The notes beneath the pieces were generated by a model. The model had not been told where the DNA came from and ran no database searches. It saw nothing but the letters and a program-made list of their open reading frames with translations. Positions 8,092 through 26,704 of a DNA stretch of 32,195 nucleotides are shown piece by piece. Origin of the DNA: an uncultured Actinomycetes bacterium (GTDB lineage: Bacteria > Actinomycetota > Acidimicrobiia > Acidimicrobiales > Microtrichaceae). The stretch is from the NCBI GenBank assembly GCA_903868545.1, contig CAIPVR010000065.1:1-32195 (forward strand), in the 5' to 3' direction. How positions within the stretch are numbered: position 1 is the first letter of the stretch; every line of letters begins with the position of its first letter. Position numbers and translations under genes: made by a program.

Positions 8092-8098
8092 GACGGCG

Positions 8099-8104
8099 AA
8101 TCTA
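8099..8104 (-). promoter_or_regulatory. -10 box of the mscS-family gene
   Basis: TAGATT on the minus strand ends 7 bases before the GTG at 8091, supporting a leaderless mRNA and this start codon. Confidence 0.55.
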
Positions 8105-8192
8105 GCGAGGGGCCGCGGCGCGCACCGGCCCCCGGCAGCGGGGGCGCCGGGGGCGCTCCCAGAAGGTCGTACGGGTGGTCGCGGCCAGCCAC

Positions 8193-8198
8193 TATCGT
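8193..8198 (+). promoter_or_regulatory. -10 box of the GGDEF-EAL gene
   Basis: TATCGT ends 8 bases before the GTG at 8207. It forms a divergent promoter pair with the mscS-family gene in a 115-base gap that shows no other clear signal. Confidence 0.5.
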
Positions 8199-8206
8199 CA
8201 CCCTCC

Positions 8207-10390
8207 GTGAAGTCGCGCAGACGCAGGTGGGCCGAGGAGGTCGAGCGGGCCACCCACCGCGTGCGTGCCGAGTACGACAGCGCCCTCGGCGAGTCGGGGA
8301 TGGTGCTGTTCCGCCAGGTGACGCCCGGCACCGACGGCCACTTCGTGTCGCCGTCGCTGGTGCAGGTCCTCGGCTGGGACCCCACCGCGTTCCGCGAGCC
8401 CGGCACCCTGCGCGGGATCGTGCATCCCGACGACCTGGCCGCGTTCCGCGAGATCGTGCCGGTGGGCCCGCTGACGCCACCCGCACCGGCGCCGCCCACG
8501 GACCACGCCTTCACCGCCGAACCCTCCGGGCGCGCCGCCTCCGTGCCGGTGGAACCGGTCGTGCGGTTCCTCGCCGCCGACGGCGGCTGGCGCCACCTGC
8601 TCGTGCGACGCACACCGGCCGGCCCCCACGAACCGGTCCGCGGCGTGATGGTGGACGTCACCGTCAGCGAGACCGCCCGCGTCGAGGAACGACGGTTCGC
8701 CGAGGTGGTCCGCCGCAGCGCCAGCGCCGTGGTGCTGCTCGAGTTCATCGACCTCACCGAGCCCACCACCCTCCTGTTGCGCTCGGCCAACCCGACGGCC
8801 CGGCGTCTGTTCAACCTGGAACACCACTCGGTGGACGGCACCCGCATCGACGAGATCTTCGGCGCCGCGTCGTGCCGTCTCCTCCGTTCGGCGCTGTTCG
8901 ACGTGGCCCACACCGGTGAGTCGCTCACCGCGGAGCGCCTGTCCTTCGCCGAGCTGCCCGACACCTGGCTGGACCTGCGCCTCGACCGTCTTCCCGACGG
9001 CACGCTGGCCGCCACGGTGACCGACGTGACCCGCACGGTGAACCTCGAGGGCCGCCTCCGCCACCAGGTCAGCCACGACGCGCTCACCGGCCTGCCGAAC
9101 CGCACGCTGCTCGACGAGCGGCTGTCCACGCTCACCACCGGGCTGTCCGACGGCCACCACCTGGCCCTGGTGCTGGTGGGGATCGGCGGCCTCCACGAGG
9201 TGAACGCCACGATGGGCCACCAGTACGGCGACCAGCTCCTCGTGGAGGTGGGCCGACGACTCACCGCCGAGTGCCAGGAGGCCGACCTCGTCGCCCGCAT
9301 CGGCGGCGACGAGTTCGCGGTGCTCGGCCCGGCCGTCCCGGGCGAGGCGGCGGCGCTGGAACTCGGCCGGTCCGTGGAGCAGGCGCTCGCCCGACCGCTC
9401 GACGTGGACGGCCAGATGGTGCACCCGTCGGCCCGGGTGGGGGTGGCGGTGGCACCAGCCCACGGCGGCGATCCCCGCACGCTGCTGCACAGCGCCGACG
9501 CCGCGCTGCGGCTCGCGCACGCCGACGCAGCGACGCTGTCGGTGCACGACCCGGTGGCCGAGCGCAGCTCGGTGCGCCGCGTCGGCCTGCTCACCGAACT
9601 GCGCCGCGGCCTCGCCAACCAGGACCTCGAGCTGCGTTACCAACCCCTGGTGGAGCTGCGCACCGGCCGTGTCGCCCGGGTGGAGGCCCTCCTGCGCTGG
9701 CAGCGCGAGGACGGCGGCAGCCGCATCCCGGTCGAACTGCTGGAGATGGCCGAGCAGTCCGGCCTGGTGGAGCCGCTCACCCGCTGGGTGCTCGGCGAGT
9801 CCGCCCGCACCGCCGACCGCCTGACCACGCCGGCCGACGCCGTGGTGGTGAGCGCCAACCTGTCGCTGCGCCAGCTGGCCGACCCCGGCCTGCTGAGCTT
9901 CGTGGAGCTGCTCCTCACCTCCGGCGAGCTGTCGCCGGAGATGGTGGAGGTGGAGATCTCCGAGACCGAACTGGGCGACGACCCGGTTCGCGCCCAGCAG
10001 GTGGTCTCGCGCCTGTCGGGCATGGGCCTGCGGGTGGTGGTCGACAACTTCGGCACCGGGTACACGTCGATGGCCACGATGGCCGACCTCGAGGTGAAGG
10101 GCATCAAGATCGACCGCAGCTACATCTCCACGCTGTCCTCCGCTCCGGCCGACCTCGCCGTGGTGCGCTCCACCGTGGAGCTCGCCCACGGTCTCGGCCT
10201 CGAGGTGGCCGCCGAGGGGGTCACCGACGGCGACACGCTCGCGCTCCTCGCGGAGATGGGCTGCGACCACGTCCAGGGCGTGCACCTGTCGGGCCCGGTC
10301 ACCCTCGACGCGCTGCCCAAGCGGGTGGGCGAGCTCGAGGAGGCCATGCAGGGCTGGGTGGCGCTGCCCGGCCCGATCCTCCTCGACTAG
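8207..10390 (+). CDS. PAS-PAS-GGDEF-EAL cyclic-di-GMP signalling protein
   Basis: A 727-residue soluble regulator of cyclic-di-GMP with no transmembrane helices. Two PAS-like sensor regions come first: about residues 20-85 (VLGWDPTAFREPG, IVHPDD) and about 160-275 (ANPTARRLFNLE). The GGDEF domain opens with HDALTGLPNRTLLDERL and has an intact GGDEF motif at 366-370. The allosteric RxxD inhibitory site is QEAD (Gln357 replaces Arg), so product inhibition is probably absent. The EAL domain (about 460-720) keeps Glu493 in VEALLRW, the Asn in SANLSLRQL, the Glu in EISET, the Lys in IKIDR and the Gln in VQGVHL. However, the metal-binding DDFG motif reads DNFG (Asp613-Asn614). Cyclase activity is plausible; phosphodiesterase activity may be reduced. 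The GTG start is set by the -10 box. Its stop codon overlaps that of the convergent acyl-CoA synthetase. Confidence 0.92.
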   Translation: MKSRRRRWAEEVERATHRVRAEYDSALGESGMVLFRQVTPGTDGHFVSPSLVQVLGWDPTAFREPGTLRGIVHPDDLAAFREIVPVGPLTPPAPAPPTDHAFTAEPSGRAASVPVEPVVRFLAADGGWRHLLVRRTPAGPHEPVRGVMVDVTVSETARVEERRFAEVVRRSASAVVLLEFIDLTEPTTLLLRSANPTARRLFNLEHHSVDGTRIDEIFGAASCRLLRSALFDVAHTGESLTAERLSFAELPDTWLDLRLDRLPDGTLAATVTDVTRTVNLEGRLRHQVSHDALTGLPNRTLLDERLSTLTTGLSDGHHLALVLVGIGGLHEVNATMGHQYGDQLLVEVGRRLTAECQEADLVARIGGDEFAVLGPAVPGEAAALELGRSVEQALARPLDVDGQMVHPSARVGVAVAPAHGGDPRTLLHSADAALRLAHADAATLSVHDPVAERSSVRRVGLLTELRRGLANQDLELRYQPLVELRTGRVARVEALLRWQREDGGSRIPVELLEMAEQSGLVEPLTRWVLGESARTADRLTTPADAVVVSANLSLRQLADPGLLSFVELLLTSGELSPEMVEVEISETELGDDPVRAQQVVSRLSGMGLRVVVDNFGTGYTSMATMADLEVKGIKIDRSYISTLSSAPADLAVVRSTVELAHGLGLEVAAEGVTDGDTLALLAEMGCDHVQGVHLSGPVTLDALPKRVGELEEAMQGWVALPGPILLD

Positions 10391-12042
10391 CCGGCCCCCT
10401 CGCCCCCGGCGCCTGCCACCTCGGTGGCCCAGCGGTAGTCGGCCTTGCCGTTCGGCCCGCGGAGGACCCGGTCGACGGTCACCACCCGCTTCGGGCACTT
10501 GTAGCCCGCGAGGTGCTCCTTGCAATGGGCGATGAGCGCCGCCGGGTCCACCGTGGCGCCCTCCTCGGCCGCCACCACCGCGGTGACCGACTGGCCCCAC
10601 TTCTCGTCGGGCAGCCCCACCACGTTGGCGTCGCGCACCGCCGGGTGGAGCTTGAGCACCTCCTCCACCTCCTCGGGGTACACCTTCTCCCCCGCGGTGT
10701 TGATGCACACCGAGCCGCGACCCAGCAGGTGGATCGTGCCGTCGGCGTCGACGGTGGCGAAGTCGCCCGGCACGGACCAGACCCGGCCACCGAACGTGCG
10801 GAACGTGGCCGCGGTCTTCTCCGGGTCCTTGTAGTACCCGACCGGGATGGGCCCTCCCACGGCGAGCACGCCCACGTCCCCGGAACCGGGCGTGACCGGC
10901 TCGCCGTCCTCGCCGAAGACCGCGGCGTGCTCGCCGAGACGGAACGTGGCCGTGCCCGCCGAACGCCGGCGCGACGCGGTGGACCGCCCGAAGCCGGTGC
11001 CCTCCGAGGAGCCCAGCAGATCGGCGAGCAGCACGTCGCACCACTCGAGGAGGGCGTCCTTCACCGGCTGCGACCAGATCACCCCCGAGCTCACCACCAC
11101 CTGGAGCGACGACAGGTCGTAGGGCCTCCCCACCGACGCCGCCTCCTCGAGGGCGGCCAGCATCGGCTTGGCGAACGCGTCGCCCACGATCGTGAGCTGG
11201 GTCGCCCGCCGGTCCTGGACCGTGCGGCACAGTTCGTGGGCGTCGAAGTGGTGCCCGGTGAGGGTGATCGCGCAGCCGCCCGCCGAGAGCACCCCCACGG
11301 TCGCCATCGCGGACGTGCCGTGCATGAGCGGGGCGGCGGGCACCAGGCGGATCGCACCGGGCCCGTCGTGGAACGCCCTCACCGCGTCAGCCACCTCGTC
11401 GGGCGTGGCGGGAACGTCGCGGCGCAGCACCTTGAAGGTGGGGGCGGCGGTGCCCAGCAGGCTCCGGTGGGGCCACATGACGCCCTTCGGCATGCCGGTG
11501 GTGCCGCCGGTGTAGAGGAACCACTGGTCGTCGCCGGAGCGCTCGATACGGGGCATCGGCTCGGCCGCGTCGAGCGCCGTGTCGTAGTCGAGCGCCCAGT
11601 CGGGCACCGGGTGGTCCTCGTCCGCGTCGACCACCAGCACCGTGCGCAGCAGCGGCAGATCGCCGCGCACGGCATCGAGGCGGTCCACCAGCTCGGCGGA
11701 GACCAGCACCGCCTCGGCGTCGGAGTTCTCCAACAGGTACCGAAGCTCCGCCTCGAGGTACCGGTAGTTGACGTTCACCGGCACGCAGCGCGCCTTGAAC
11801 GCACCGAAGGTGGCCTCGAGGTACTCGTTGCCGTTGTGCAGGTAGAAGGCCACCTTCGCGTCCGGACCGAGGCCGGCCGCGGTGAGGTGGCCGGCCACCC
11901 GGGCGGCACGAACGTCGAAGTCCCTCCAGGTGCGCACCACGTCGCCGTGCACGACCGCGTCCGCGTCGGGCACCGTGTCGGCCACCGTCTCCCAGACGGT
12001 CGCCAGGTTCATGCCGGCCTGCGGGTTCGTGCCGTCGGCCAC
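10387..12042 (-). CDS. Acyl-CoA synthetase (AMP-forming), FadD-like
   Basis: A 551-residue member of the ANL adenylating family that activates a carboxylic acid with ATP and loads it onto CoA. The P-loop YTGGTTGMPKGVMWPH starts at 177, the adenylate-binding motif LLGSSEGTG is near 342-350, and the hinge and A8 region contains SVPGDFATVDADGTIHLLGRGS. EKVYPEEVEEVLKLHP is near 452-467, and the catalytic A10 lysine is Lys533 in PNGKADY. Substrate chain length cannot be read from sequence; close family members use medium- or long-chain fatty acids or steroid side chains. The GTG at 12042 has a GAGAGGGG ribosome-binding site 8 bases upstream, which favours it over the ATG 30 bases downstream. The 3' end shares the CTAG with the stop codon of the GGDEF-EAL gene. 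It is divergent from the CoA-transferase-family gene. Confidence 0.92.
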   Translation of the reverse strand: MADGTNPQAGMNLATVWETVADTVPDADAVVHGDVVRTWRDFDVRAARVAGHLTAAGLGPDAKVAFYLHNGNEYLEATFGAFKARCVPVNVNYRYLEAELRYLLENSDAEAVLVSAELVDRLDAVRGDLPLLRTVLVVDADEDHPVPDWALDYDTALDAAEPMPRIERSGDDQWFLYTGGTTGMPKGVMWPHRSLLGTAAPTFKVLRRDVPATPDEVADAVRAFHDGPGAIRLVPAAPLMHGTSAMATVGVLSAGGCAITLTGHHFDAHELCRTVQDRRATQLTIVGDAFAKPMLAALEEAASVGRPYDLSSLQVVVSSGVIWSQPVKDALLEWCDVLLADLLGSSEGTGFGRSTASRRRSAGTATFRLGEHAAVFGEDGEPVTPGSGDVGVLAVGGPIPVGYYKDPEKTAATFRTFGGRVWSVPGDFATVDADGTIHLLGRGSVCINTAGEKVYPEEVEEVLKLHPAVRDANVVGLPDEKWGQSVTAVVAAEEGATVDPAALIAHCKEHLAGYKCPKRVVTVDRVLRGPNGKADYRWATEVAGAGGEGAG

Positions 12043-13519: not shown

Positions 13520-16570
<3,051 letters not shown>

Positions 16571-16610
16571 GGACACCACCCCGCCACGGCCGGCGGGAAC
16601 TTCGGACATC

Positions 16611-16644
16611 AGGGGTGCTCCGGGCGCCCTGAGGACCCCTATTC
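16611..16644 (-). repeat. Dispersed hairpin element, copy B
   Basis: AGGGGT-g-CTC-c-GGG pairs with CCC-t-GAG-g-ACCCCT (16611-16640), a near-perfect 30-base inverted repeat. Bases 16624-16644 are identical to copy A. It lies 31 bases downstream of the photolyase stop and upstream of the beta-galactosidase promoter, the same relation to the preceding minus-strand gene as copies A and C. It is a plausible terminator. Confidence 0.65.
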
Positions 16645-16667
16645 CCCTATTCCTCTGGTCCTCTGGT
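16636..16667. repeat. Two adjacent 8-base tandem duplications
   Basis: CCCCTATT occurs twice in a row (16636-16651) and is followed at once by CCTCTGGT twice in a row (16652-16667). The first unit overlaps the end of the hairpin element. This looks like recent local slippage in the gap after the photolyase gene. Confidence 0.85.
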
Positions 16668-16674
16668 GGCGGGG

Positions 16675-18207
16675 TCAGAGGGTGCCGGCGTCGAGGCGGG
16701 CGAGCACCTCCGCGGCACGGGCACGCACCTCGGGCAGGTCCGACAGGCGCCGCAGCCCCGCCATCTGGTTCCGCATCCGGCCGTTGCCGCGGAACCGCTC
16801 CTCGTGGCGGGCGAGGAAGTCCCAGTAGAGCGTGGTGAACGGGCACGCGTCCTCGCCGGTGCGACGGCCCGGGTCGTACCGGCAGCCCCGGCAGTGGTCG
16901 CTCATCCGCTTGATGTACGCACCACCCGCCGCGTACGGCTTGGTGGCCATGCGGCCGCCGTCGGCGTGCAGCGTCATGCCCACCACGTTCGGCGACATCA
17001 CCCATTCCGCCCCGTCGACGAACCGCTCCCACATCCAGTCGTTGAGCTCACCGGGGCGCACCCCCGTGAGCAGACACAGGTTGCCGAGCACCATGAGCCG
17101 CTCGATGTGGTGGGCGTAGGCGTGGTCGTCCACGTGGCCGAGCACGTTGGCCACGCAGGCCATGTGCGTGGCCGGGTCGTCAGGACGGTCGGTGCCGTCG
17201 GGGCCGTCGGGTCGGCCGGCCGAGGTGAACGCCGGGGGCAGCGGACGGTCCGCACCCAGTTCGTTCCACCCGTCCCACTCCGACTCCCACAGCCACCAGA
17301 GGCCCCAGACGTACTCCCGCCAGCCGATGACCTGGCGGACGAACCCCTCGGCCGAGGCCAGCGGCACGCGGCCGTCGCGGTAGGCGACCTCGGCCGCCTC
17401 CACCACCTCCGCGGGGTGCAGCAGGCCGAGGTTCATCGACGACGACAGGACCGAGTGGGCCAGTTTCCACTCCGCGGCGAGCATGGCGTCCTCGTGGGGC
17501 CCGAACCGGGGCAGCCCCTGGTCGATGAACACCTCGAGACGCTCGAGCGCCTGGGCCCGCGAGGTGGGCCACAGCCCCAACGGCGCCGCGCCGACGGTGC
17601 CCGACGGGAGACCGTCGGCGACCCGCCGGTCGAGGTCGTCGGGGGCGAACACCGGGGCGTCGGGCCAGCTGCGGCCGTCCCGGGGCGGCGGCTCCCGGTT
17701 GTCGGCGTCGAGGTTCCACACGCCACCGCACGGCTCGTCGCCGTCCATGAGGACACCGAGGCGCACCCGCTGCCACCGGTAGAAGTCCTCCATGCGGAGC
17801 CGGCCGGGCCGGGTGGTGGCCCAGGCCGCGAAGTCCTCGTGGTGGCAGAGGAACTGGTCCGAGCGCACCGTGGTGCAGTCGAGCTCCGCCGTCAGCCGTC
17901 GTGCGGCCCGGGAGTTCGGCTCCGTGACCAGGACCTCCTCCGGGGCGGCCGCGGCTCGGTGGGCGGCCAGCCCCGAGGCGAAGTCCGGGGCGTCGCGGAG
18001 ATCGACCTCGAAGCCCTCGTCGCGCAGCTCGGCCGCGAACCGCTCCATCGCCGTGAGGTAGAGGTGCAGCCGCTGGCGGTGCCACGGACGGGACCGGGCC
18101 TTCGCCCCGGACCGCACGAGCAGCACCCGGTGCGTGGCCGGCGTCGCGTCGGCGAGCGCGCCGATGGAGCGGTTGAGCTGGTCGCCGAGGACCCAGACGG
18201 TGCGCAC
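16675..18207 (-). CDS. FeS-type bacterial cryptochrome/(6-4) photolyase (PhrB-like)
   Basis: A 510-residue flavoprotein of the deoxyribodipyrimidine-photolyase-related family, whose characterised member PhrB of Agrobacterium repairs (6-4) photoproducts with light, using FAD, a lumazine antenna and a [4Fe-4S] cluster. It opens with TVWVLGDQLN. The FAD-binding helical half has EGFVRQVIGWREYVWGLWW and YAHHIERLMVLGNLCLLTG. Four cysteines fit the cluster ligands with the right spacing: Cys351, Cys439 and Cys442 (HCRGC) and Cys455 (DACPF). The end of the domain (YWDFLARHEERF, GNGRMRNQM) is complete. Length matches PhrB. It is the last gene of a six-gene minus-strand run, 31 bases behind the Bcp peroxiredoxin, downstream of a predicted B12 light sensor. 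The start is a GTG without a clear ribosome-binding site, so translation may be coupled. Confidence 0.93.
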   Translation of the reverse strand: MRTVWVLGDQLNRSIGALADATPATHRVLLVRSGAKARSRPWHRQRLHLYLTAMERFAAELRDEGFEVDLRDAPDFASGLAAHRAAAAPEEVLVTEPNSRAARRLTAELDCTTVRSDQFLCHHEDFAAWATTRPGRLRMEDFYRWQRVRLGVLMDGDEPCGGVWNLDADNREPPPRDGRSWPDAPVFAPDDLDRRVADGLPSGTVGAAPLGLWPTSRAQALERLEVFIDQGLPRFGPHEDAMLAAEWKLAHSVLSSSMNLGLLHPAEVVEAAEVAYRDGRVPLASAEGFVRQVIGWREYVWGLWWLWESEWDGWNELGADRPLPPAFTSAGRPDGPDGTDRPDDPATHMACVANVLGHVDDHAYAHHIERLMVLGNLCLLTGVRPGELNDWMWERFVDGAEWVMSPNVVGMTLHADGGRMATKPYAAGGAYIKRMSDHCRGCRYDPGRRTGEDACPFTTLYWDFLARHEERFRGNGRMRNQMAGLRRLSDLPEVRARAAEVLARLDAGTL

Positions 18208-18238
18208 GTGGACGGGGCGCCGGAGGGCCGGCGGCCGG

Positions 18239-18697
18239 TCAGGCCGGGGTGGCCGAGCGCAGGGCCGAGAGGGCCTCGTCCGCGTGGACGTCCATGTTCA
18301 TCTCGGAGGAGATGACCCGGAGCAGCCGCCGGTCGGTCCCGATCACGAACGTGGACCGCTTGTTGAACAGCGGACCCATTCGCTTCACCCCGAACGCCGC
18401 CGCCACCGAGCGGTCGGTGTCGGACAGCAGCGGGTAGCCGAGTCCGTGCTTCGCGTCGAAGGCCGCCTGCTTGTCGACCTTGTCGGCGCTGATGCCGACG
18501 CGCTGCGCGCCCACCTCCGAGAACTCCGCGGCGAGGTCACGGAAGTGGCACGACTCCTTGGTGCAGCCGGTGGTGAGGGCCTTCGGGTAGAAGAACAGCA
18601 CCACCGGGCCCTTCTCCAGCAGCTCCGACAGCGACACGGGCGTGCCGGTCTGGTCGGGGAGGGTGAAGTCGGGTGCGAGGTCTCCGGCGGCGAGCAT
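18239..18697 (-). CDS. bcp: Peroxiredoxin, Bcp/PrxQ type
   Basis: A 152-residue thiol peroxidase that reduces hydrogen peroxide and organic hydroperoxides at the expense of thioredoxin or a similar donor. It starts LAAGDLAPDFTLPDQTG. The peroxidatic Cys45 lies in the PrxQ signature ALTTGCTKESC, with a resolving Cys50 five residues on, followed by ISADKVDKQAAFDAKHGLGYPLLSD and RSTFVIGTDRRL. The fold appears complete. The frame is open further upstream, but that part overlaps the phosphatase gene and lacks peroxiredoxin similarity, so I use the ATG at 18697. The 65-base gap before it is extremely GC-rich with self-complementary GGCCGGGCCC stretches, which might attenuate transcription. Its place between a photolyase and a B12-regulator operon suggests a role against light-generated peroxides. 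Confidence 0.93.
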   Translation of the reverse strand: MLAAGDLAPDFTLPDQTGTPVSLSELLEKGPVVLFFYPKALTTGCTKESCHFRDLAAEFSEVGAQRVGISADKVDKQAAFDAKHGLGYPLLSDTDRSVAAAFGVKRMGPLFNKRSTFVIGTDRRLLRVISSEMNMDVHADEALSALRSATPA

Positions 18698-18762
18698 GGC
18701 GTGGAAAACCCGGTGGGCCGGTCGGGTATTCCGGCCCGGCCGCCCGGGCCGGGCCCGGCCGC

Positions 18763-19530
18763 TCAGGCCAGCAGGCGCTGCCGCAGGGCCGGGGGTACGG
18801 AGGGGTCGAGCCCGGCGTCGAGGAGGTAGGCCTCCGCACCGCCGTGACGGGCCCGGAGCCGCGACAGCGTGACCTCCATGGTGCCCGGCCGGGCCGACCA
18901 CACCCCCAGGTGCAGTTCGTCGTCGCCCGCCTCGCCGTACGGGTGCCCGTGGACCCACAACCACGTGGTCTGCACCGCCGTGGCGAGCGACGAACGGGCG
19001 TAGTCGGCCACCACCAGGTCGTCGGGCACGCCGAGCAGTCCCAGGAGCAGCATGGCGAGCAGGCCGGTCCGGTCCTTGCCCACCGCGCAGTGGAACGCCA
19101 CGCCCCCGTCGGTGGCCGCCACCTTCTCCACCGCGCCCACGAACCGCCCGCCGAAGCCCTCGAGGATCTCGGTGTAGCGGTGGACCAGCACCGGCGACGC
19201 GTCGGTGTCGGTCGGTTCGAGCGCGGCCACGTCGTCCGCGTCCCAGGCGTAGTTCGGGTCGAGCACCGGGTGGTGGGCCAGTTCGATGCCGTCGTGGGCG
19301 AACACACCGTCGGCGGTCTGCTCCGAGTGGTCGCGCAGGTCGAGCACCACCCGCACGCCGTGGTCGTGCAGCGCGACGCGGCTGTCGTGGCGGGCCCGGT
19401 GCAACGAGTCGCCGCGGACCAGCACCCCGGGCCGCACGGCCCGACCACCCGCGGCGGGCAACCCGCCGAGGTCGCGGGTGTTGAAGATCCCGTCGCGGGC
19501 GAGCACGGGACGTAGCGAGCTGGTGGGCAC
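18763..19530 (-). CDS. Protein-tyrosine/serine phosphatase-like protein (Y_phosphatase3 type)
   Basis: A 255-residue member of the bacterial tyrosine/lipid phosphatase family related to mycobacterial PtpB. The catalytic P-loop is HCAVGKDRTG (Cys148 nucleophile, Arg154), preceded by the N-terminal signature FNTRDLGG and the strand VRVVLDLRDHSE. The Lys and Asp inside the P-loop (GKDR) mark the group that acts on phosphotyrosine/phosphoserine and sometimes phosphoinositides. There is no signal peptide. The start is a GTG 16 bases after the preceding gene. Substrate and role are unknown. Its position inside the sigma/B12-regulator run, between an unknown beta-rich protein and a peroxiredoxin, is the only hint, so a signalling role in the same stress response is inference. 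Confidence 0.88.
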   Translation of the reverse strand: MPTSSLRPVLARDGIFNTRDLGGLPAAGGRAVRPGVLVRGDSLHRARHDSRVALHDHGVRVVLDLRDHSEQTADGVFAHDGIELAHHPVLDPNYAWDADDVAALEPTDTDASPVLVHRYTEILEGFGGRFVGAVEKVAATDGGVAFHCAVGKDRTGLLAMLLLGLLGVPDDLVVADYARSSLATAVQTTWLWVHGHPYGEAGDDELHLGVWSARPGTMEVTLSRLRARHGGAEAYLLDAGLDPSVPPALRQRLLA

Positions 19531-19546
19531 GACGGTCCGATCCGGC

Positions 19547-20764
19547 TCAGTCGAGCGCCAGGACCACGCCGACGCCCTCGGCAGTGACCCGCAGGTCGTC
19601 CACCCGGACCGGCACGGTGTCGGTGCTGCCCGGCACGAGCGGCAGCGCGACCGTGGCCGGGAACCGGAGGCGCAGTGGGACCGCGCCGGCCAGCCCGCCG
19701 ACGGTGCGGCTCAGGTCGTTCACGAAGCCGGGCAGGAAGGACGGCAGCTCCACCCAGGCGGCCTGCACGGTCAGCTCGAGGCGGCCGCCCACGAGGCGGG
19801 GCCGGATCTCGGTGCGCAGGGCGCTGCGGAGGTCGGGCAGCCGGTCCGAGAGCACCCGGCTCTGGCGCAGCGTGCCGCCGACGCGCTGCTCACCGAGGTC
19901 GAGCTCCAACTCGAACGGCAGGGGCAGGTTGCCGATGGCGCGTTCCAGCAGCAGGTGGGCCAGGTGGTCCACCGCGCCGGCGGCGGCCCCGACCCCGAGG
20001 CGGTTCCCCGCCACCGGCACCGGCCGGGCCACGCCCTCGGCGTCGGGGCGGGCCGGCAGGGAGAAGGTGAGGGTGCCGGTGCCCACGCCGACCGTGGCTC
20101 GGCCCGTGTCGACCCCCAGCTCGTGGAGGACCATGCCCACGTCGGGGCCCAGGTCGGTGCCGACGGAACCCACGTGCTCGCCGAGGGACGCGAACAGACC
20201 GTCGCCCATGGAGCCGAACATCACCTGGACCATCTGGGTCATCGGCACCCAGGTGCCGGGGTCCACCCCGTCGGGCACCGGCGCGTCCGGGTCCACCTGC
20301 AGGCTCACGAGCTCGGCGCGGGAGAGGTCGAGGCCCACGTTGACCGTGCGGTCGTCGCGCAGCTCGACCATCGGGTCGACCAGCGCCTCCACCCGCACGG
20401 GGATCGGGGCGGGGAGTTCCGGAAGGCCCAGCGGCGCACCCTCGACGACATCGCCCTCGTAATCCGCCGTGCGCACCGAGACGTCCCCGTCGGCGGTGAC
20501 CACGGCACGCGCCCGGCCGCCGTCCTCGGCCCGGAGGTCGAGGGAGCCGCCGGTGATCGTCAGCGCCAGGCGGAGGTCCACCTCCCCCATCGCCGGCAGC
20601 ACGACCTGCTGCTCGAGCGGGTCGAGCGGGACGCCCTCACCGACGACCAGCGCGAGCAGGCCGTTCAGCAGATCCTCCGTGAACGAGACGACCACGGCCG
20701 CGCGGGCGGTGGTGGGCTCTGCGGTGGTGGGGTGACCTGCGTCGGGTTCCGCTCCGTCGGGCAT
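19547..20764 (-). CDS. Unknown beta-rich protein of 405 residues
   Basis: I do not recognise the family with confidence. The protein has no signal peptide, membrane segment or cysteine. It is dominated by alternating hydrophobic strands separated by Gly/Pro turns (for example VDLRLALTITGGSLDLRAED, NVGLDLSRAELVSLQV, GRLELTVQAAWVELPSF), with a helical-looking region near residues 175-230 (MTQMVQVMFGSMGDGLFASL). Repeated amphipathic strands in two halves recall lipid-binding tubular (BPI-like or DUF2993-like) folds, but this is only an impression. It starts 10 bases after the B12-regulator stop and ends 16 bases before the phosphatase start, so it is almost certainly co-transcribed. An in-frame extension upstream would overlap the regulator and is rejected. 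Confidence 0.75.
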   Translation of the reverse strand: MPDGAEPDAGHPTTAEPTTARAAVVVSFTEDLLNGLLALVVGEGVPLDPLEQQVVLPAMGEVDLRLALTITGGSLDLRAEDGGRARAVVTADGDVSVRTADYEGDVVEGAPLGLPELPAPIPVRVEALVDPMVELRDDRTVNVGLDLSRAELVSLQVDPDAPVPDGVDPGTWVPMTQMVQVMFGSMGDGLFASLGEHVGSVGTDLGPDVGMVLHELGVDTGRATVGVGTGTLTFSLPARPDAEGVARPVPVAGNRLGVGAAAGAVDHLAHLLLERAIGNLPLPFELELDLGEQRVGGTLRQSRVLSDRLPDLRSALRTEIRPRLVGGRLELTVQAAWVELPSFLPGFVNDLSRTVGGLAGAVPLRLRFPATVALPLVPGSTDTVPVRVDDLRVTAEGVGVVLALD

Positions 20765-20774
20765 GCCGGCGGTT

Positions 20775-21659
20775 CTAGCCGACCCGACCCGAAGCGTACG
20801 AGGCGAACAGGTCCACCACCGCGGCGGGGTCCGCTGCGAAGCCCTCGGAACCGAGGGCCAGGGCCGAGGCCTCGTCGACCACGGCACCGCCGCCCACGAG
20901 CACGGGCACCCCCGGCAGGCCCTCGCGCACCTCGCCCACCTGGGCGGCCACGCCGTCGAGCACTTCGGGTGCCGACACGCAGAGCCCCACCGCCGTGAGC
21001 CGCCCGACCTGGCGACCTGCGTCCACGAAGGACGCGGGCGGGGTGTCGGCCCCCAGGTCCATCACGTCGAACCCCGCACCCCGGAGGAGGTCCGACAGGA
21101 TCGCCGTGGGCAGCGAATGACGGTCACCCGCCACCGACCCGAGCACGACGGTGCCCCGGCGGCGGCCCGGCCTGGCGAACCGGGGTCCGAGCCGGCCGAT
21201 CAGCCGGTTGGCCACGGCGGACGCCCGGTGCTCCTCGGCGATGGGCAACTCGCCCGCCGCCCACCGCTCCCCGATCCGGCGCATCGCCGGCGAGAGCATC
21301 TCGGTGAGCACCTCGGAGGGCTCCGCCCCGGCGGCCATGGCCGCCTCGACCACGCCCCAGGCGCCGGCTTCGTCGCCGGCGAGGAGCCGCGCCTCGAGAC
21401 GCTCGCGATGGGTTCGGCGCGACGTCGGGGCCGGTTTCCCCGGACCGCCGCTCTCGTCACGTTCCACGGACCGGCCCGGACGATCACGGCGGAACCCGGC
21501 GAGGTCGACCTCGTCGACCCGCCACTCGTCGCCCACCTTCGTCGCCGGAAGGCGGCCGCTCCGCACGTAGCGGTAGGCGGTCATGTAGTGGACGCCCAGG
21601 CGTTCGGCCGCTTCCCGGAGGCCCAGTTGGGCGGGGTCGGCCGGTGTGCGGGTGCTCAT
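20775..21659 (-). CDS. CarH/LitR-like B12-dependent regulator with excisionase-type HTH
   Basis: A 294-residue predicted transcription factor and light sensor. Residues about 11-58 are a winged HTH of the excisionase/MerR kind (LREAAERLGVHYMTAYRYVR, then KVGDEWRVDEVDL). A charged linker follows (59-85), then a four-helix cobalamin cap (about 86-165) with the Wx9EH motif (Trp133, Glu143, His144), which in CarH covers the upper face of adenosylcobalamin. The Rossmann B12-binding domain (about 168-290) has D179-R-H181-S-L-P184, matching [E/D]xHxxG except for Pro in place of Gly, then Ser229 and GGG (256-258). The Trp-to-His spacing (48) is close to that of Thermus CarH (46). CarH proteins repress in the dark and leave DNA when light breaks the Co-C bond. 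The gene starts 9 bases after the sigma-factor stop. A redox or B12-level sensor is the alternative reading. Confidence 0.85.
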   Translation of the reverse strand: MSTRTPADPAQLGLREAAERLGVHYMTAYRYVRSGRLPATKVGDEWRVDEVDLAGFRRDRPGRSVERDESGGPGKPAPTSRRTHRERLEARLLAGDEAGAWGVVEAAMAAGAEPSEVLTEMLSPAMRRIGERWAAGELPIAEEHRASAVANRLIGRLGPRFARPGRRRGTVVLGSVAGDRHSLPTAILSDLLRGAGFDVMDLGADTPPASFVDAGRQVGRLTAVGLCVSAPEVLDGVAAQVGEVREGLPGVPVLVGGGAVVDEASALALGSEGFAADPAAVVDLFASYASGRVG

Positions 21660-21668
21660 CCCGGCCGC

Positions 21669-22631
21669 TCAGTCCTGAGTGAGGTAGCGCCCGACCGCCC
21701 GCCACGACGGGTGCAGGAGCTTGGCGAGTCCGCGGTGCTCGAGCTGGCGGATGCGCTCCCGGGACAGTCCGACCTCGTCGGCGACCTGGGCGACCGACAG
21801 CGGTTCGGAGCCGTCGAACCCGTAGCGGAGCCGCAGGATCACGCGTTCGCGGTCGTCGAGGACCGAGAGCATGTCCTCGAACTCCTCGGGGAGCAGGCGG
21901 GAGGTGACGTCCTCCACCTCGGCCCGGGCACGTACGTCCTCGATGAAGTCGCCGAGTTCGGCCCCACCCTCCTCACCCACCGAACCGGAGAGCGAGATGG
22001 GGTCGGCCGACACCCGCATCAGTTCGGTGATGCGCTCCTCGCTGAGGTTCGCCGCCTCGGCCAGTTCGGAGAGCTCGGGCGCCCGGCCCATCGTCTGCTC
22101 GAGGAAGGTGGTGGTCTCACGGAGGCGGAGGAGTTCGTCGTTGGCCCGGCTGGGGAGACGGACCGAGGACCTGCTCCCGGCGATGCCCCGGGAGATGAAC
22201 TGACGGATCCACCACACCGCGTAGGTGGAGAAGCGGAAGCCCTTCTCGGCGTCGAACTTCTCGACGGCCCGCATCAGGCCGAGGTTGCCCTCCTGGATGA
22301 GGTCGAGGAGGGGCACGCCGGAGGACTGGTAGCGCTTGGCGACCGACACCACGAGGCGCAGGTTCGACTTCACGAACAGGTCGGAGGCCTCCCTGCCCTG
22401 TTCGGCGGCCCTGCGGAGGCGCCGGCGTTGGGCCGGGGTGGCCGACCCGTTGAGTCGGCTCAGTGTCTCCTCGGCCCTGCGACCCTCGGCGATGGACCGG
22501 GCCAGTGCCTGTTCACCCTGCGGGGTGAGGAGGGGGTGGCGGCCGATCTCCTCGAGGTAGAGGCCGACCGGGTCCTGCGCGGACCGCTTGCGGACGGGGG
22601 TTGCGGTGTCGCTCACGGGCTCTGCAACCAT
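21669..22631 (-). CDS. Group 2 sigma-70 factor (RpoD-like)
   Basis: A 320-residue primary-like RNA polymerase sigma factor. Region 1.2 is DPVGLYLEEIGRHPLL (20-35). Regions 2.1-2.4 run from about 84 to 153 (DLFVKSNLRLVVSVAKRY, GLMRAVEKFDAEKGFRFSTYAVWWIRQ). Region 3 is about 162-240, and region 4 about 255-308 (LDDRERVILRLRYGFDG, then the HTH VAQVADEVGLSRERIRQLEHRGLAKL). There is no acidic region 1.1 extension, so this is a group 2 alternative sigma rather than the main housekeeping factor. The ATG at 22631 follows an AT-rich patch. It is the first gene of the minus-strand run that includes the B12 regulator, so it probably transmits the regulator's signal to other promoters; that part is inference. 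Confidence 0.9.
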   Translation of the reverse strand: MVAEPVSDTATPVRKRSAQDPVGLYLEEIGRHPLLTPQGEQALARSIAEGRRAEETLSRLNGSATPAQRRRLRRAAEQGREASDLFVKSNLRLVVSVAKRYQSSGVPLLDLIQEGNLGLMRAVEKFDAEKGFRFSTYAVWWIRQFISRGIAGSRSSVRLPSRANDELLRLRETTTFLEQTMGRAPELSELAEAANLSEERITELMRVSADPISLSGSVGEEGGAELGDFIEDVRARAEVEDVTSRLLPEEFEDMLSVLDDRERVILRLRYGFDGSEPLSVAQVADEVGLSRERIRQLEHRGLAKLLHPSWRAVGRYLTQD

Positions 22632-22636
22632 CGGAC

Positions 22637-22681
22637 TTAGTGCTAAATGCCCGCCCGCCCGCGAAATCCGTGGTGACACGG
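22637..22681 (-). promoter_or_regulatory. Control region of the sigma/B12-regulator operon
   Basis: Two palindromes precede the sigma gene: TTAGTGCTAA (22637-22646), an AT-rich island in very GC-rich DNA only 5 bases before the start codon, and CCGTG-N4-CACGG (22668-22681). Unlike most promoters in the window there is no TANNNT box at the usual distance. This fits a promoter read by an alternative sigma and/or covered by a repressor. Either palindrome could be the regulator's operator. Confidence 0.4.
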
Positions 22682-22735
22682 GTCGCCCTCGCGCCGCGCA
22701 AGCGTCGCGCGGGCCGGGCCCGATCCGGTCAGCCC

Positions 22736-23269
22736 TCAGCAGGGCAGCTCGACCTGTCGCACCTCGACGGACGGCGTCGGTGATCCCGCCGGACCCGCCA
22801 CCAACAGGAGGAGCTGGCCCCGGTACTCGCCCGTCTCCCCGCACCCGGGGCCGGTCACGTCGTGCTCCACCTCCAGACGGACGCGGCCGTCACCGTCGAC
22901 CCGGTCCACCCCGACCAGCCGGACGTCGTGCCGATCACCCAGGTACCCCACCACGCCGTACCAGCGGTCGGCCCGCACCTCGGGTGCGCCGCCCCGACCG
23001 CGCGCCCCCTCGCCGCAACGGGCCCGGGCGAGCAGCGCAGCCGGTTCCCGACCGAGACCGACGACGCGGCCGGCCGGCACCCGCCGGAGCGGATCGTCGC
23101 TCTCCCGGTAGCCGCAGAGGATCGTCACGCCCGACCAGCCCCCCTCCTCGACCGAGGGCGATGGGCCGGAGCCGCACGCCGCGCCCACGAGCCACACCGC
23201 CGTGAACACCACCACCGTGCGGACGGCCCTCGACCGCCCGGACGCGCGGATCGCTCGACGCTGCTCCAT
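22736..23269 (-). CDS. Small putative lipoprotein, function unknown
   Basis: A 177-residue protein beginning with a basic stretch (MEQRRAIRASGRSRAVR), a hydrophobic core and VGAAC, a probable lipobox followed by Gly/Ser/Pro-rich sequence, so export and lipid anchoring are likely. The mature part has paired cysteines and a beta-rich C-terminal half (VRLVGVDRVDGDGRVRLEVEH, then GQLLLLVAG). That half loosely resembles the PrcB-type domain found in some secreted bacterial proteins, too weakly for a functional call. It ends 104 bases before the sigma gene and is divergent from the carotenoid-oxygenase-family gene. Membership of the photoprotection run is uncertain because of that gap. Confidence 0.7.
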   Translation of the reverse strand: MEQRRAIRASGRSRAVRTVVVFTAVWLVGAACGSGPSPSVEEGGWSGVTILCGYRESDDPLRRVPAGRVVGLGREPAALLARARCGEGARGRGGAPEVRADRWYGVVGYLGDRHDVRLVGVDRVDGDGRVRLEVEHDVTGPGCGETGEYRGQLLLLVAGPAGSPTPSVEVRQVELPC

Positions 23270-23345
23270 GTCCGTTCCGACGACCCGGAGCCCCGGACGG
23301 TTCCCCGCACCCCGTCGGCTGCAAGAATGGTGAACAGCGTCAACC

Positions 23346-23352
23346 AGGGGGA
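23346..23352 (+). promoter_or_regulatory. Ribosome-binding site of the carotenoid-oxygenase-family gene
   Basis: AGGGGGA lies 7 bases before the ATG at 23360. It decides for this start over the in-frame ATG at 23327, which has no such site. Confidence 0.65.
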
Positions 23353-23359
23353 CACCGCC

Positions 23360-25090
23360 ATGCCCGTGCCGCGCACCGCCACCACCGCCCGCCACCAGGA
23401 CCTCGACCTGCGGCTCGTGCAGGGCGCCTGGCCCGACGACGTGCAGGGCGAGGTGGTCTTCTCCGCCCCCCAGGTGGCACCCGACCTGGCGTACGCGTTG
23501 TTCGGCTTCGGGGTGGTCTGCCGCCTCTCACTGCGGCCCGGCACCCACGGCGCGGCGAACGACCGCTTCGCCTGGCGGGCCCGCGTGACCGACACGCCCA
23601 GCCAGCGCCTCCACACCCGGGCGGCGGAGCGGTTCCGCCCGGGGCCCACCGGCTACGCGTCGCCGTTCGGGTTCCCGAACGCGGCCAACACCGCACCTCT
23701 GCCGTGGGGCGACCGCCTGTTCACGACCTGGGACGTGGGCCGGCCCGTGGAGGTGGACCCGGTGGACCTCACCTACCTCGCCGACGTGGGCGCCCAGGAC
23801 GGCTGGGGCGCGCCCACCATGCCGAACCCCGGCGTCCTCCCCTTCTACTTCTCGAGCGCGCACCCCGTGGTCGACCCCGAGCGCCACTGCCTGTGGACCG
23901 TGAAGCTGACCTTCGACGCCTCCGGCGGCATGCAACTGCACGTGGTCCACTGGGACGGCACGGGCACCGCCGCGAGGTGCTGGCCGATCGAGGGTGGCAT
24001 CGTGTTCGGCTCGTCGCACACCGTGAGCCAGACCCGCGACTGGCTCGTGCTGGCCGACTCCGGCAACTTCAAGACCGATTCCGGGGAGATGGCCGGCGGC
24101 CCCCGGACCGTCACCGTCGACGACGACGCCGCCGTCTACCTGGTGCGCAAGGACCAGCTGCTGGGCGCCGCGCAGGGCACGCCCGTCACCCCGGTGCGGG
24201 CCCGGGTGGCGCCCACCACCGGCCACTTCTACGCCCGCTGGGACGACAGCGACGGCGTGCGCGTGCTGTTCGAGCACATGGACCGGATGGACCTGGGCTT
24301 CAAGCTGGAACCCGGCGACCTCGACGCCCACGGCCGACCGGTCGACCCGGCGCTCGTGGGCTTCTACAACATGGGCATGGCACCGAGCACCTGCTCGGAG
24401 GTGCGCTTCGATCCCACCACCGGGGACAGCCGGGTGGAGGCCCGGTTCCGTGAGGACTGGACGTGGAACCTCGAGCTGTCGGCAATGGACTGGAGCGCCG
24501 AGGCACTCGCCCGACCCACCCGTCACCACATCGCCTACCAAGGCTGTCGGCCGGGGGCGGTGTCGCAGCGGGCGGTCGCCGCCTACGGCGACCGCCTCGG
24601 CCCCATCCCCGAGCACGACACGCCCGGCGCCCTCGTCTCGCTGGAGCGCGGCGGCCTCGAGGTGGCCGCACGATGGGACTACACCGACACCGGGGACCAC
24701 ATCACGTCGCCGGCGTTCGCCCCCCGTCAGGAGGCCGTGCCCGAGCGCGGCACCGGCACGGATCCCTATGCCGGGGCCGAACCCGGCGGGCACGAGGGCT
24801 GGGTGGTGCTGCCGGTGCTCAACGACGACGGGTTCCGGGTGGAGCTGTTCGACGCCGCACGGGTGGGTGACGGGCCGGTCGCCACGCTCGCGACGCCCGA
24901 CCGTGAGTGCGTGCCCGTCCTGCTGCACTCGGCGTGGATGCCGCGGGCGGTGGCCCACGACCCGGGGATCGAACGCCTGCGCTTCTCCGACGAGGTGGAC
25001 ACGGTGGACCTGACCGCGCTCGGCGACGACGTCGCCGCGACCGTGCGGGCGGTGGCCGACGAACTCGACGGTCGGGTCGCGGTCCGCTGA
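23360..25090 (+). CDS. Carotenoid oxygenase (RPE65/CCD) family protein
   Basis: A 576-residue predicted non-heme iron dioxygenase or isomerase that would cleave a conjugated double bond in carotenoids, apocarotenoids or stilbenes. The four iron-ligand histidines of the seven-bladed propeller appear in order: His168 (SSAHPVVDPE), His220 (FGSSHTVSQTRDWLVLADS), His306 (LFEHMDRMDLGF) and His523 (LLHSAWMP). The characteristic late block is present: TSPAFAPRQ, then GWVVLPVLNDDGFRVELFDAARVGDGPVATLATP. Overall similarity to classical members looks distant, so the substrate is not predictable. There is no signal peptide. A good ribosome-binding site marks the start. It lies about 730 bases from the sigma/B12-regulator genes, divergent from the lipoprotein, and is followed 26 bases later by a PGPGW protein. 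No carotenoid biosynthesis gene is in the window. Confidence 0.85.
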   Translation: MPVPRTATTARHQDLDLRLVQGAWPDDVQGEVVFSAPQVAPDLAYALFGFGVVCRLSLRPGTHGAANDRFAWRARVTDTPSQRLHTRAAERFRPGPTGYASPFGFPNAANTAPLPWGDRLFTTWDVGRPVEVDPVDLTYLADVGAQDGWGAPTMPNPGVLPFYFSSAHPVVDPERHCLWTVKLTFDASGGMQLHVVHWDGTGTAARCWPIEGGIVFGSSHTVSQTRDWLVLADSGNFKTDSGEMAGGPRTVTVDDDAAVYLVRKDQLLGAAQGTPVTPVRARVAPTTGHFYARWDDSDGVRVLFEHMDRMDLGFKLEPGDLDAHGRPVDPALVGFYNMGMAPSTCSEVRFDPTTGDSRVEARFREDWTWNLELSAMDWSAEALARPTRHHIAYQGCRPGAVSQRAVAAYGDRLGPIPEHDTPGALVSLERGGLEVAARWDYTDTGDHITSPAFAPRQEAVPERGTGTDPYAGAEPGGHEGWVVLPVLNDDGFRVELFDAARVGDGPVATLATPDRECVPVLLHSAWMPRAVAHDPGIERLRFSDEVDTVDLTALGDDVAATVRAVADELDGRVAVR

Positions 25091-25104
25091 CCGCCACGAC
25101 GGCC

Positions 25105-25110
25105 CATACT
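25105..25110 (+). promoter_or_regulatory. -10 box of the PGPGW gene
   Basis: CATACT ends 6 bases before the ATG at 25117, close to the actinobacterial -10 consensus and spaced for a leaderless transcript. It suggests this gene has its own promoter despite the short gap to the gene before it. Confidence 0.45.
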
Positions 25111-25116
25111 GACGAC

Positions 25117-25584
25117 ATGGATGTCGTGGGTCAGGACGGGGACGACCGGCGCCCGGACGGCCACGACCACCCGACCGCCCACGAGGTCGTCGAGCGGGTC
25201 CGCGACGCCGCGTTCGAGGCCGAGCGGGCGACCGGTGAACGGGAGGAGACGGAGGCCGAGATCCGCCGCGGCGTCATCATCCGCCTCGCCCGGATCATCG
25301 GGGGCTTCGTCCTCATCGGCCTCGGCCTCGCCCTGCTCCCCCTGCCCGGACCGGGTTGGGTGACCATCCTGGTGGGGCTCGGGCTGCTCCCCTACGCCTG
25401 GGCCCAGCGGACGATCCGCCTCATCCGCCGGCGCATCCCCGGCGTCCCCGAGGACGGCCGCATCCCCACCCGCACCTGGATCGTGATGGGCCTGATCGTG
25501 GTGGCCACCATGAGCGTCTCGATCCTCTTCGGCGACGCCATCGGACAGTTCCTCGGCGACGCCTGGTCCTCGGTCTGGAGCTGA
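25117..25584 (+). CDS. PGPGW-family transmembrane protein
   Basis: A 155-residue small membrane protein with a charged N-terminal segment (about 1-50, rich in Asp, Glu and Arg; EAERATGEREETEAEIRR looks helical). A first hydrophobic stretch (about 54-75) runs into the family motif LPLPGPGWVTILVGLGLLP, then comes a basic loop (RTIRLIRRRIP) and a last membrane segment (about 120-140, TWIVMGLIVVATMSVSILFG). The PGPGW motif defines the family, whose molecular function is not known. The start follows a CATACT box with no ribosome-binding site. Longer in-frame starts upstream fall inside the carotenoid-oxygenase gene. Confidence 0.9.
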   Translation: MDVVGQDGDDRRPDGHDHPTAHEVVERVRDAAFEAERATGEREETEAEIRRGVIIRLARIIGGFVLIGLGLALLPLPGPGWVTILVGLGLLPYAWAQRTIRLIRRRIPGVPEDGRIPTRTWIVMGLIVVATMSVSILFGDAIGQFLGDAWSSVWS

Positions 25585-25594
25585 GCCGGGCCGC

Positions 25595-25600
25595 TACGGT
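25595..25600 (+). promoter_or_regulatory. -10 box of the epoxide-hydrolase-like gene
   Basis: TACGGT ends 6 bases before the ATG at 25607 in a 22-base gap, again fitting a separate leaderless transcript. Confidence 0.5.
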
Positions 25601-25606
25601 CCTGCC

Positions 25607-26605
25607 ATGACCAGCTTCCCGCCCGCGGTCCACCACACGCTGTCCGGACTCCACGCACCCGACGGCGACCCCGGCGGGATCCGGCTCGCGGTGCACGAGC
25701 TCGGTGACGGCGGCGACCGGCCCCCCGTGGTGTTCTGCCACGGGTTCCCCGAACTCGCGTACTCCTGGCGACACCAGCTCCCGGCCGTGGCCGACGCCGG
25801 GTTCCGCGCCATCGCCCCCGACCAGCGTGGCTACGGCGGCTCGAGCGCGCCCGACGCCGTCGACGCCTACGGCCTGGGCAACCTGTGCGGCGACCTCGCC
25901 GACCTGCTCGACGCACTCGAGGTGGAGCGCGCCGTGTTCGTGGGCCACGACTGGGGCGGCTTCGTGGCCTGGGCGATGCCGGTGCTGTTCCCCGAGCGCT
26001 GCGCCGGGGTGGTCGGGGTGTGCACGCCGTACGTCCCGTTCCCCACCACGGCGTTCCTCCGTTCGATGTTCCCGGACGACGAGAAGATGTACATGCTCTG
26101 GTTCCAGCAGCCGGGCGTGGCCGAGTCCGTCATCGACCCGCGGGCCCGGCTCCTGTTCGAGAAGCTCATGATCGGCGGCGTGGACCCGGCGGAACTGCTG
26201 GCCGCCCAGCTCGCCCGAGGCGAGCTGGACATGAACCCCTTCCGCGACCTCGAGGGCCTCGAGCGCGTCGGCGAACCGATCGTGACGGAGGACGAACTGT
26301 CGGTCTACGCCGACACCTTCGGCCGCACGGGCTTCCGGGGCGGCGTCAACTGGTACCGCAACATCGACGCGAACGCGGCGGCCCACCCGGAGGTGGGCAC
26401 ACGACCGCTGGAGCTGCCGACACTGATGATCTGCGCGGAGTGGGACCCGGCGCTGCGGCCCGAGATGGCCGCCGGCATGCCCGACCTGTGCGCCGACCTG
26501 GAGCTGCACACCGTCGCGAAGGCCGGCCACTGGGTCCAGCAGGAGAGCCCGGAAGAGGTGAACGACCTCCTCGTCGACTGGCTGGTCCGCCGCTTCGGCG
26601 GGTGA
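25607..26605 (+). CDS. Epoxide-hydrolase-like alpha/beta hydrolase
   Basis: A 332-residue alpha/beta-hydrolase most like soluble epoxide hydrolases, which open epoxides to diols through an aspartyl ester. HGFPE at 45-49 forms the oxyanion region. The nucleophile is Asp115 in VGHDWGG (a Ser here would mean an esterase; Asp indicates epoxide hydrolase or dehalogenase). The charge-relay Asp280 lies in ICAEWDPAL and the base His308 in AKAGHWVQQE. Two cap-domain tyrosines that activate the epoxide oxygen are likely Tyr162 (EKMYMLWFQQPG) and Tyr250 (GGVNWYRN), which supports the epoxide hydrolase reading over dehalogenase. The substrate is unknown. Placement after a carotenoid-oxygenase-family gene raises the possibility of carotenoid- or lipid-derived epoxides, as speculation. 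Confidence 0.92.
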   Translation: MTSFPPAVHHTLSGLHAPDGDPGGIRLAVHELGDGGDRPPVVFCHGFPELAYSWRHQLPAVADAGFRAIAPDQRGYGGSSAPDAVDAYGLGNLCGDLADLLDALEVERAVFVGHDWGGFVAWAMPVLFPERCAGVVGVCTPYVPFPTTAFLRSMFPDDEKMYMLWFQQPGVAESVIDPRARLLFEKLMIGGVDPAELLAAQLARGELDMNPFRDLEGLERVGEPIVTEDELSVYADTFGRTGFRGGVNWYRNIDANAAAHPEVGTRPLELPTLMICAEWDPALRPEMAAGMPDLCADLELHTVAKAGHWVQQESPEEVNDLLVDWLVRRFGG

Positions 26606-26687
26606 ACCCGGCGACTCCGGCGGGCCCGGCGGGAAGAACCGGGCGCCGCCGGCCGTTCGGATCCGCTGGACGCCCTCCGGGGCGACC

Positions 26688-26704
26688 GTCCCGCGTCACG
26701 GGAC
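26688..26704 (+). other. Small hairpin before the AhpE-like gene
   Basis: GTCCCG (26688-26693) and CGGGAC (26699-26704) can form a six-pair stem with a five-base loop, 28 bases before the ATG at 26733, in a 127-base gap that otherwise shows nothing clear. It could be a terminator for the preceding gene or a leader structure. Confidence 0.35.

Follow-up and report, generated by a model that had tools for sequence, protein, structure and literature searches.

In CarH/class I LitR proteins, known from Thermus, Myxococcus and Bacillus megaterium, a DNA-binding helix-turn-helix (HTH) of the MerR type is followed by a four-helix bundle and a Rossmann B12-binding domain, and photoprotection genes are repressed in the dark. 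The CarH operator consists of tandem 11-bp direct repeats, nAnnTnnACAn (PMC8156234). In Streptomyces, the B12 photosensory regulator LitR and the sigma factor LitS relay light to photoprotection genes; LitS belongs to the extracytoplasmic function (ECF) factors, and the description of the system has LitR, once activated by light, promote the transcription of litS (PMC12705666). The class II LitR of Pseudomonas has the binding consensus T(G/A)TACA / TGTACA, and phrB, an SDR gene, an FAD oxidoreductase gene, ufaM and cryB are light-induced through LitR (PMC9758184). B12 binding is not expected for this class, which uses LOV partners. Photocobilins (SasPcob, AbDPcob) carry a bilin-binding globin and occur either alone or joined to enzyme domains. 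Here we compare with these systems a run of six minus-strand genes in a 32,195-nucleotide stretch of DNA (the window; contig 65 in the genome, 3.69 Mb long and 97% complete, of a freshwater-type actinobacterium), which begins with a sigma factor gene (sig) and the gene of a B12-binding regulator (b12) and ends with an iron-sulfur (FeS) photolyase gene. The closest homologues come from actinobacterial metagenome-assembled genomes, many of them labelled Microthrixaceae, Ilumatobacteraceae or Acidimicrobiales.

We propose, with a probability of roughly 0.6, that this run is a light-inducible photoprotection operon under a B12-binding repressor, which would follow the CarH principle with a DNA-binding module and an operator of its own. 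In the dark, the regulator with bound adenosylcobalamin would occupy a single TTTAGYRCTAAA palindrome at the promoter and start of sig, blocking its own operon. Blue-green light would break the Co-C bond and release the regulator, upon which the sigma factor, the regulator itself, a TULIP-like protein, a lipid/tyrosine phosphatase, a peroxiredoxin and the FeS photolyase would be co-produced from a presumed single transcript. The group 2 sigma factor would then relay the signal to other promoters, possibly that of the divergent ccd gene; the main ground for this relay is the lack of a second operator in the genome.

The principle of combining a B12 photoreceptor, a sigma factor and a photolyase is already known, and LitR-LitS works alike. 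The present run differs from that system in that a group 2 sigma factor comes first, the regulator second, and repression is proposed. In the literature searched, we found no description of the DNA-binding module, the operator, the group 2 partner or the one-operator layout, nor any paper that unites a group 2 sigma factor with cobalamin, light and MerR.

Gene layout and conservation of the run

The genes of the run and its candidate operator are as follows.

21669..22631, minus strand: sig, group 2 sigma-70 factor (Pfam, NCBIfam)
20775..21659, minus strand: b12, regulator with HTH_17, four-helix-bundle and Rossmann B12-binding domains (Pfam, motifs, AlphaFold)
19547..20764, minus strand: p405, protein of 405 residues, TULIP-like fold suggested (no Pfam or NCBIfam family; low-confidence AlphaFold model)
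18763..19530, minus strand: ptp, Y_phosphatase3 (PtpB-type) phosphatase (Pfam, E 1.7e-49)
18239..18697, minus strand: bcp, Bcp/PrxQ-type peroxiredoxin with CTKESC (Pfam, NCBIfam, sequence)
16675..18207, minus strand: phr, FeS bacterial cryptochrome/photolyase of the PhrB/CryB family (similarity to solved structures, DPRP domain)
22636..22647, minus strand: candidate operator palindrome TTTAGCACTAAG, consensus TTTAGYRCTAAA (conservation, co-occurrence)

The six genes extend from 22631 to 16675 with intergenic gaps of 9, 10, 16, 65 and 31 bases, exactly as given in the initial annotation. A scan revealed no intrinsic terminator in any of the five gaps, and the one terminator-like match, inside bcp, scored no better than shuffled sequence. 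No sigma-70 consensus promoter was found in the scan, and an Rfam search of 16400-26700 gave zero matches.

A comparison of gene neighbourhoods, suggested earlier as a check, bore the grouping out: the order sig-b12-p405-ptp-bcp-phr is shared by three genera belonging to a single actinobacterial family, with protein identities of 49-80%. Beyond the window (genus g1), the full order is present in G028 (locus L033, up to part of bgal), G026 (L034), G030 (L035), G020 (L036) and G010 (L131), with L033-L036 and L131/L132 representing genus g11, and it is split over two contigs in G006 (L038 + L197, genus g7). This recurrence in relatives makes the cluster more than a chance arrangement. The conserved block is usually followed by bgal, with a divergent ccd and an alpha/beta hydrolase gene where the contig reaches that far.

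The product of the first gene contains sigma regions 1.2, 2, 3 and 4 and lacks region 1.1, just 19 residues preceding region 1.2 (Pfam, NCBIfam). These features agree with its earlier assignment to group 2; an ECF identity was rejected, as factors of that type contain no more than regions 2 and 4. The genome has further sigma-70 genes, among them a 53% paralogue at C283, the probable housekeeping factor. A GTG at 22616, kept in relatives as an alternative to the ATG at 22631, may be the actual start of sig.

To judge from their neighbourhoods, the parts of the run have different histories. The sig-b12 pair is its stable core: the two genes are also neighbours in G003 (sig-b12-p405-bcp-SDR), and in G002 as well, there with unrelated genes downstream. 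G004 has sig-p405-ptp-bcp-bgal without b12, and the p405, ptp, bcp and bgal block is found, whole or in part, without sig, b12 and phr in five genomes (G008, G001, G016, G011 and G009). The last of these observations favors the best-surviving alternative, in which light control is limited to sig and b12, while p405, ptp, bcp and bgal form an older unit that has its own promoter and merely lies downstream. The 65-bp gap before bcp could hold such a promoter, and the G002 arrangement also speaks for it. However, the other gaps measure 9-31 bp and contain no terminators, and phr is attached to the p405-ptp-bcp block solely in sig-b12 genomes. We thus regard a restriction of light control to the first two genes as unlikely, if less so than the alternatives discussed below. 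Since the block occurs without the regulator in other genera, p405, ptp, bcp and bgal were probably recruited to the proposed operon and are not dedicated light-response parts. The earlier suggestion that p405 and the phosphatase are new components of the response therefore finds no support here, the phosphatase moreover belonging to a known family.

Sensor and DNA-binding halves of the regulator

The regulator, of 294 residues, consists of HTH_17, B12-binding_2 and B12-binding domains (Pfam) and ends after the Rossmann domain. Its order of HTH, four-helix bundle and Rossmann B12 domain is that of CarH/class I LitR, and the Wx9EH and D/ExH motifs are common to both (here GERW-x9-EH and GDRH). 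With GADTP, the sensor half displays all four of the motifs GxxW, EH, GxxH and GxxxP, which were proposed with SignatureFinder as a signature of light-responsive B12 domains (PMC11796333). W133, E143, H144, H181, G203 and P207 are invariant in 81/81 regulator homologues; as HTH peptides served to collect most of this set, the invariance of HYMTAYRY within it is a selection effect. The AlphaFold model has a predicted local distance difference test (pLDDT) value of 89.8. By sequence and fold, the photocobilins are nearest to the sensor domain, followed by CtMerR and then CarH. Membership of the photocobilins themselves was rejected, as the bilin-binding globin domain is absent, and the regulator has instead a DNA-binding domain, of another type than that of CarH.

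The DNA-binding half corresponds to PF12728 HTH_17 and TIGR01764 excise, the excisionase type, and a MerR domain is absent. The NCBIfam CarH model scores 55.7 bits, far below its cut-off of 400 bits. The initial annotation of a CarH-like B12 regulator thus stands for the sensor half, in its domains, motifs and fold, and not for the DNA-binding half. Assignment to CarH/LitR proper fails, since the DNA-binding domain and the operator differ and the equivalent of CarH His132 is missing: where CarH has a MerR domain, tandem 11-bp repeats and His132, the window has HTH_17, a single 12-bp palindrome and an alanine. Paralogous HTH_17-B12 genes in relatives have no neighbours in common with the query set.

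Methionine synthase and corrinoid proteins are relatives of the sensor domain as well. This kinship, together with the absence of the CarH upper-ligand histidine, could indicate that the regulator senses cobalamin status, or adenosyl- versus methyl- or hydroxocobalamin, and not light, in which case the run would be a general stress operon tuned to B12 supply. We consider this improbable, however, given that all four light-linked signature motifs are present and that the genes next to the regulator in its various clades are those of photolyases, the oxidase/CFA/SDR/DUF1365 set and DNA repair rather than those of methionine or B12 metabolism.

A candidate operator upstream of sig

Comparison of the sequence upstream of sig in nine genomes revealed the palindrome TTTAGYRCTAAA, a candidate operator and very probably the site at which the B12 regulator binds. 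In the window it occupies 22636-22647, just upstream of the alternative sig starts and overlapping any plausible sig promoter; the region that had been proposed for a gel shift (22632-22735) contains it. Among the nine readable sig-b12 genomes, seven (the window, L033, L034, L037, L131, L133 and L130) have it with no more than one mismatch. G004, which has kept sig but lost the regulator, lacks it, and 22636-22647 is the sole site at ≤1 mismatch in the 3.69 Mb window genome.

Using the pattern TTTAGNNCTAAA, in which the two central bases are left free, we scanned 80 homologous loci alongside nine control palindromes. Exact matches numbered 17, versus 0 for the controls, and with one mismatch allowed there were 45, versus 0-8; 24 of these 45 lie within 600 bp upstream of the regulator gene. 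The two free bases resolve to a pyrimidine in 46/46 cases and a purine in 45/46, which from within the data argues strongly for a real palindrome. Across Acidimicrobiia, it typically lies 10-45 bp ahead of where the regulator gene, sig, or divergent amine-oxidase/SDR genes of the CFA/DUF1365 cluster begin. Across 298 genomes of the order, the exact palindrome is present in 47/95 genomes with the regulator versus 10/203 without (Fisher 1e-18; the co-occurrence p-values are optimistic, the genomes being related and their relatedness uncorrected), compared to 10/95 and 25/203 for a reversed-pattern control.

A CarH-type operator of tandem 11-bp direct repeats was not found at the locus, which has a compact palindrome instead. 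The motif is also unlike the class II LitR consensus, and no instance of its use as an operator was found in the literature searched. Its half-sites resemble the arms of CIRCE, TTAGCACT, a likeness that would speak for binding by another protein; the compact palindrome lacks the N9 spacer of CIRCE. That another repressor binds the palindrome, or that it is a sigma-factor promoter element, as its overlap with the likely promoter and the lack of an exact site in about half of the regulator-bearing genomes might suggest, is the least probable of the alternatives, because the palindrome co-occurs with the regulator gene, also precedes regulator genes without a sigma neighbour, disappears with b12 in G004, and is found in 0/32 loci of a related clade with different wing residues versus 34/49 in other homologues.

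Besides the uncorrected relatedness, three findings weigh against the proposed light-inducible operon. In two of the nine readable sig-b12 genomes (L035 and L036), the palindrome is degraded, with 2-3 mismatches. In G002 and G003, the photolyase gene is located elsewhere, with 0 palindromes at ≤2 mismatches in the stretch read. Finally, the equivalent of H132 in TtCarH is Ala134 in the regulator, and an alanine in 49/81 homologues. As the H132A mutant of TtCarH cannot monomerise, the release step would have to differ from that of CarH, and with an alanine after the tryptophan the bis-His light state of CarH cannot form. This histidine is nevertheless not required for a light response, as CtMerR, SasPcob and AbDPcob, the closest solved sensor domains, demonstrate with Arg, Gln and Tyr, respectively, at this position.

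Three loci with the motif deserve mention. At L133 (G002, 7647-10852), the sig-b12 pair has a perfect palindrome and is followed by LytR_C-like and trehalose-phosphatase-like genes, without photoprotection genes. In two genomes of one genus, G018 (L135) and G006 (L147), a palindrome with one mismatch lies close to where a SigR-like ECF sigma gene begins; a probable anti-sigma gene comes next.

Accessory genes and regulator clades

The photoprotection theme seen in the initial annotation is upheld by the wider context of the regulator. Its homologues form clades by neighbour set, namely oxidase-CFA-SDR-DUF1365, photolyase with NmrA/DUF2867, ferrochelatase with Nei/Fpg, and ImuB-like/DnaE error-prone polymerases, the neighbour families of the main clade representatives having been checked with Pfam. 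In the window's family, an FeS photolyase is present in 13/16 genomes with an HTH_17-B12 regulator versus 1/17 without (p = 1.3e-5). The oxidase-CFA-SDR-DUF1365 set resembles the class II LitR/LOV regulon of Pseudomonas, whose targets (photolyase, CryB, SDR, FAD oxidoreductase, CFA/UfaM) are comparable. Some kilobases away from the regulator gene, the palindrome precedes this cluster at L047, L059, L078, L103 and L105, which predicts a lipid-modification set in the regulon of other Acidimicrobiia.

The clade lacking TTTAGYRCTAAA comprises 32 sequences (within L040-L112; e.g. L042, L069 and L081), in which HTH_17-B12 regulators lie beside an ImuB-like Y-family (IMS) polymerase and a DnaE-type polymerase III alpha, and in which the wing differs (YVRLGLL). 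The sequence GTYACGCA is found in 15/32 of these loci, mostly ~33 bp upstream, versus 0/48 in other clades, and CTGCGTTACGCAG is a putative operator for these homologues (e.g. L042). Light or B12 control of mutagenic repair is possible in this clade. The labels ImuA and NfuN for neighbours of 240 and 155 residues were unconfirmed by Pfam.

Taken broadly, these comparisons suggest, at somewhat below even odds, that Acidimicrobiia possess an undescribed class of B12 photoreceptor-repressors, with an excisionase-type HTH and a photocobilin-like B12 module, acting via the 12-bp TTTAGYRCTAAA. In one lineage, coupling to a group 2 sigma factor would make it a light relay with one operator, and a sister clade with another putative operator, linked to ImuB-like/DnaE, would place mutagenic repair under light control. 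If true, this would mean a B12-photoreceptor class whose DNA-binding module is new and whose operator is short and defined, which would suit it to green-light gene switches. It would point to a route by which actinobacteria of sunlit waters may induce DNA repair and peroxide defence, and the motif would allow light regulons of uncultured Acidimicrobiia to be read straight from genomes. The single-operator and sigma design is a simple, testable circuit.

Among the accessory proteins, p405 has no Pfam or NCBIfam family and no obvious signal peptide, and is confined to the window's family (11/298 genomes of the order). The best PDB matches of its AlphaFold model (pLDDT 49) are nearly all TULIP proteins (LBP, YceB, SPLUNC, CETP, BPI and juvenile-hormone-binding protein). 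The model suggests, with low confidence, a TULIP-like lipid-binding fold, the hallmark of which is a long helix wrapped by a curved antiparallel sheet; a role as a cytosolic carrier of apolar ligands is a lead to follow and not a result. The phosphatase has the active-site loop HCAVGKDRTG. The family assignments of the two last genes were both confirmed: bcp encodes a Bcp/PrxQ peroxiredoxin with an AhpC-TSA domain and a CxxxxC pair (CTKESC), and phr a member of the FeS PhrB/CryB family, with a DPRP domain, the four cluster cysteines kept and E values of ~1e-108 to solved PhrB, CryB and relatives. Besides (6-4) photoproduct repair, CryB-type roles are possible for this protein.

Three further genes flank the run.

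13520..16558, minus strand: bgal, GH2 beta-galactosidase, perhaps the unit's seventh gene (Pfam; downstream of the block in most relatives, whether or not the regulator is there)
22736..23269, minus strand: lipoprotein-like open reading frame between ccd and sig, without a match at the relatives' loci
23360..25090, plus strand: ccd, divergent RPE65-type carotenoid oxygenase (Pfam; divergent position kept in relatives)

The bgal gene (16558-13520) may belong to the unit. Upstream of ccd, relatives have a promoter-like element, TTGAC-N16-TAAA. We weighed GTGAAC...TAAA before ccd as a possible second site of the regulator and rejected it, since L126, whose genome has no regulator, retains the element, which thus looks like a core promoter. 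A rhodopsin search of the genome found none, but neither did the control, so that absence is not shown. The window genome encodes a PduO-type cobalamin adenosyltransferase. It also contains, at L184 (G000:C71, 7182-12044), a crtE-crtI-crtB-cyclase-idi carotenoid cluster without the palindrome, which could be a target of the sigma factor.

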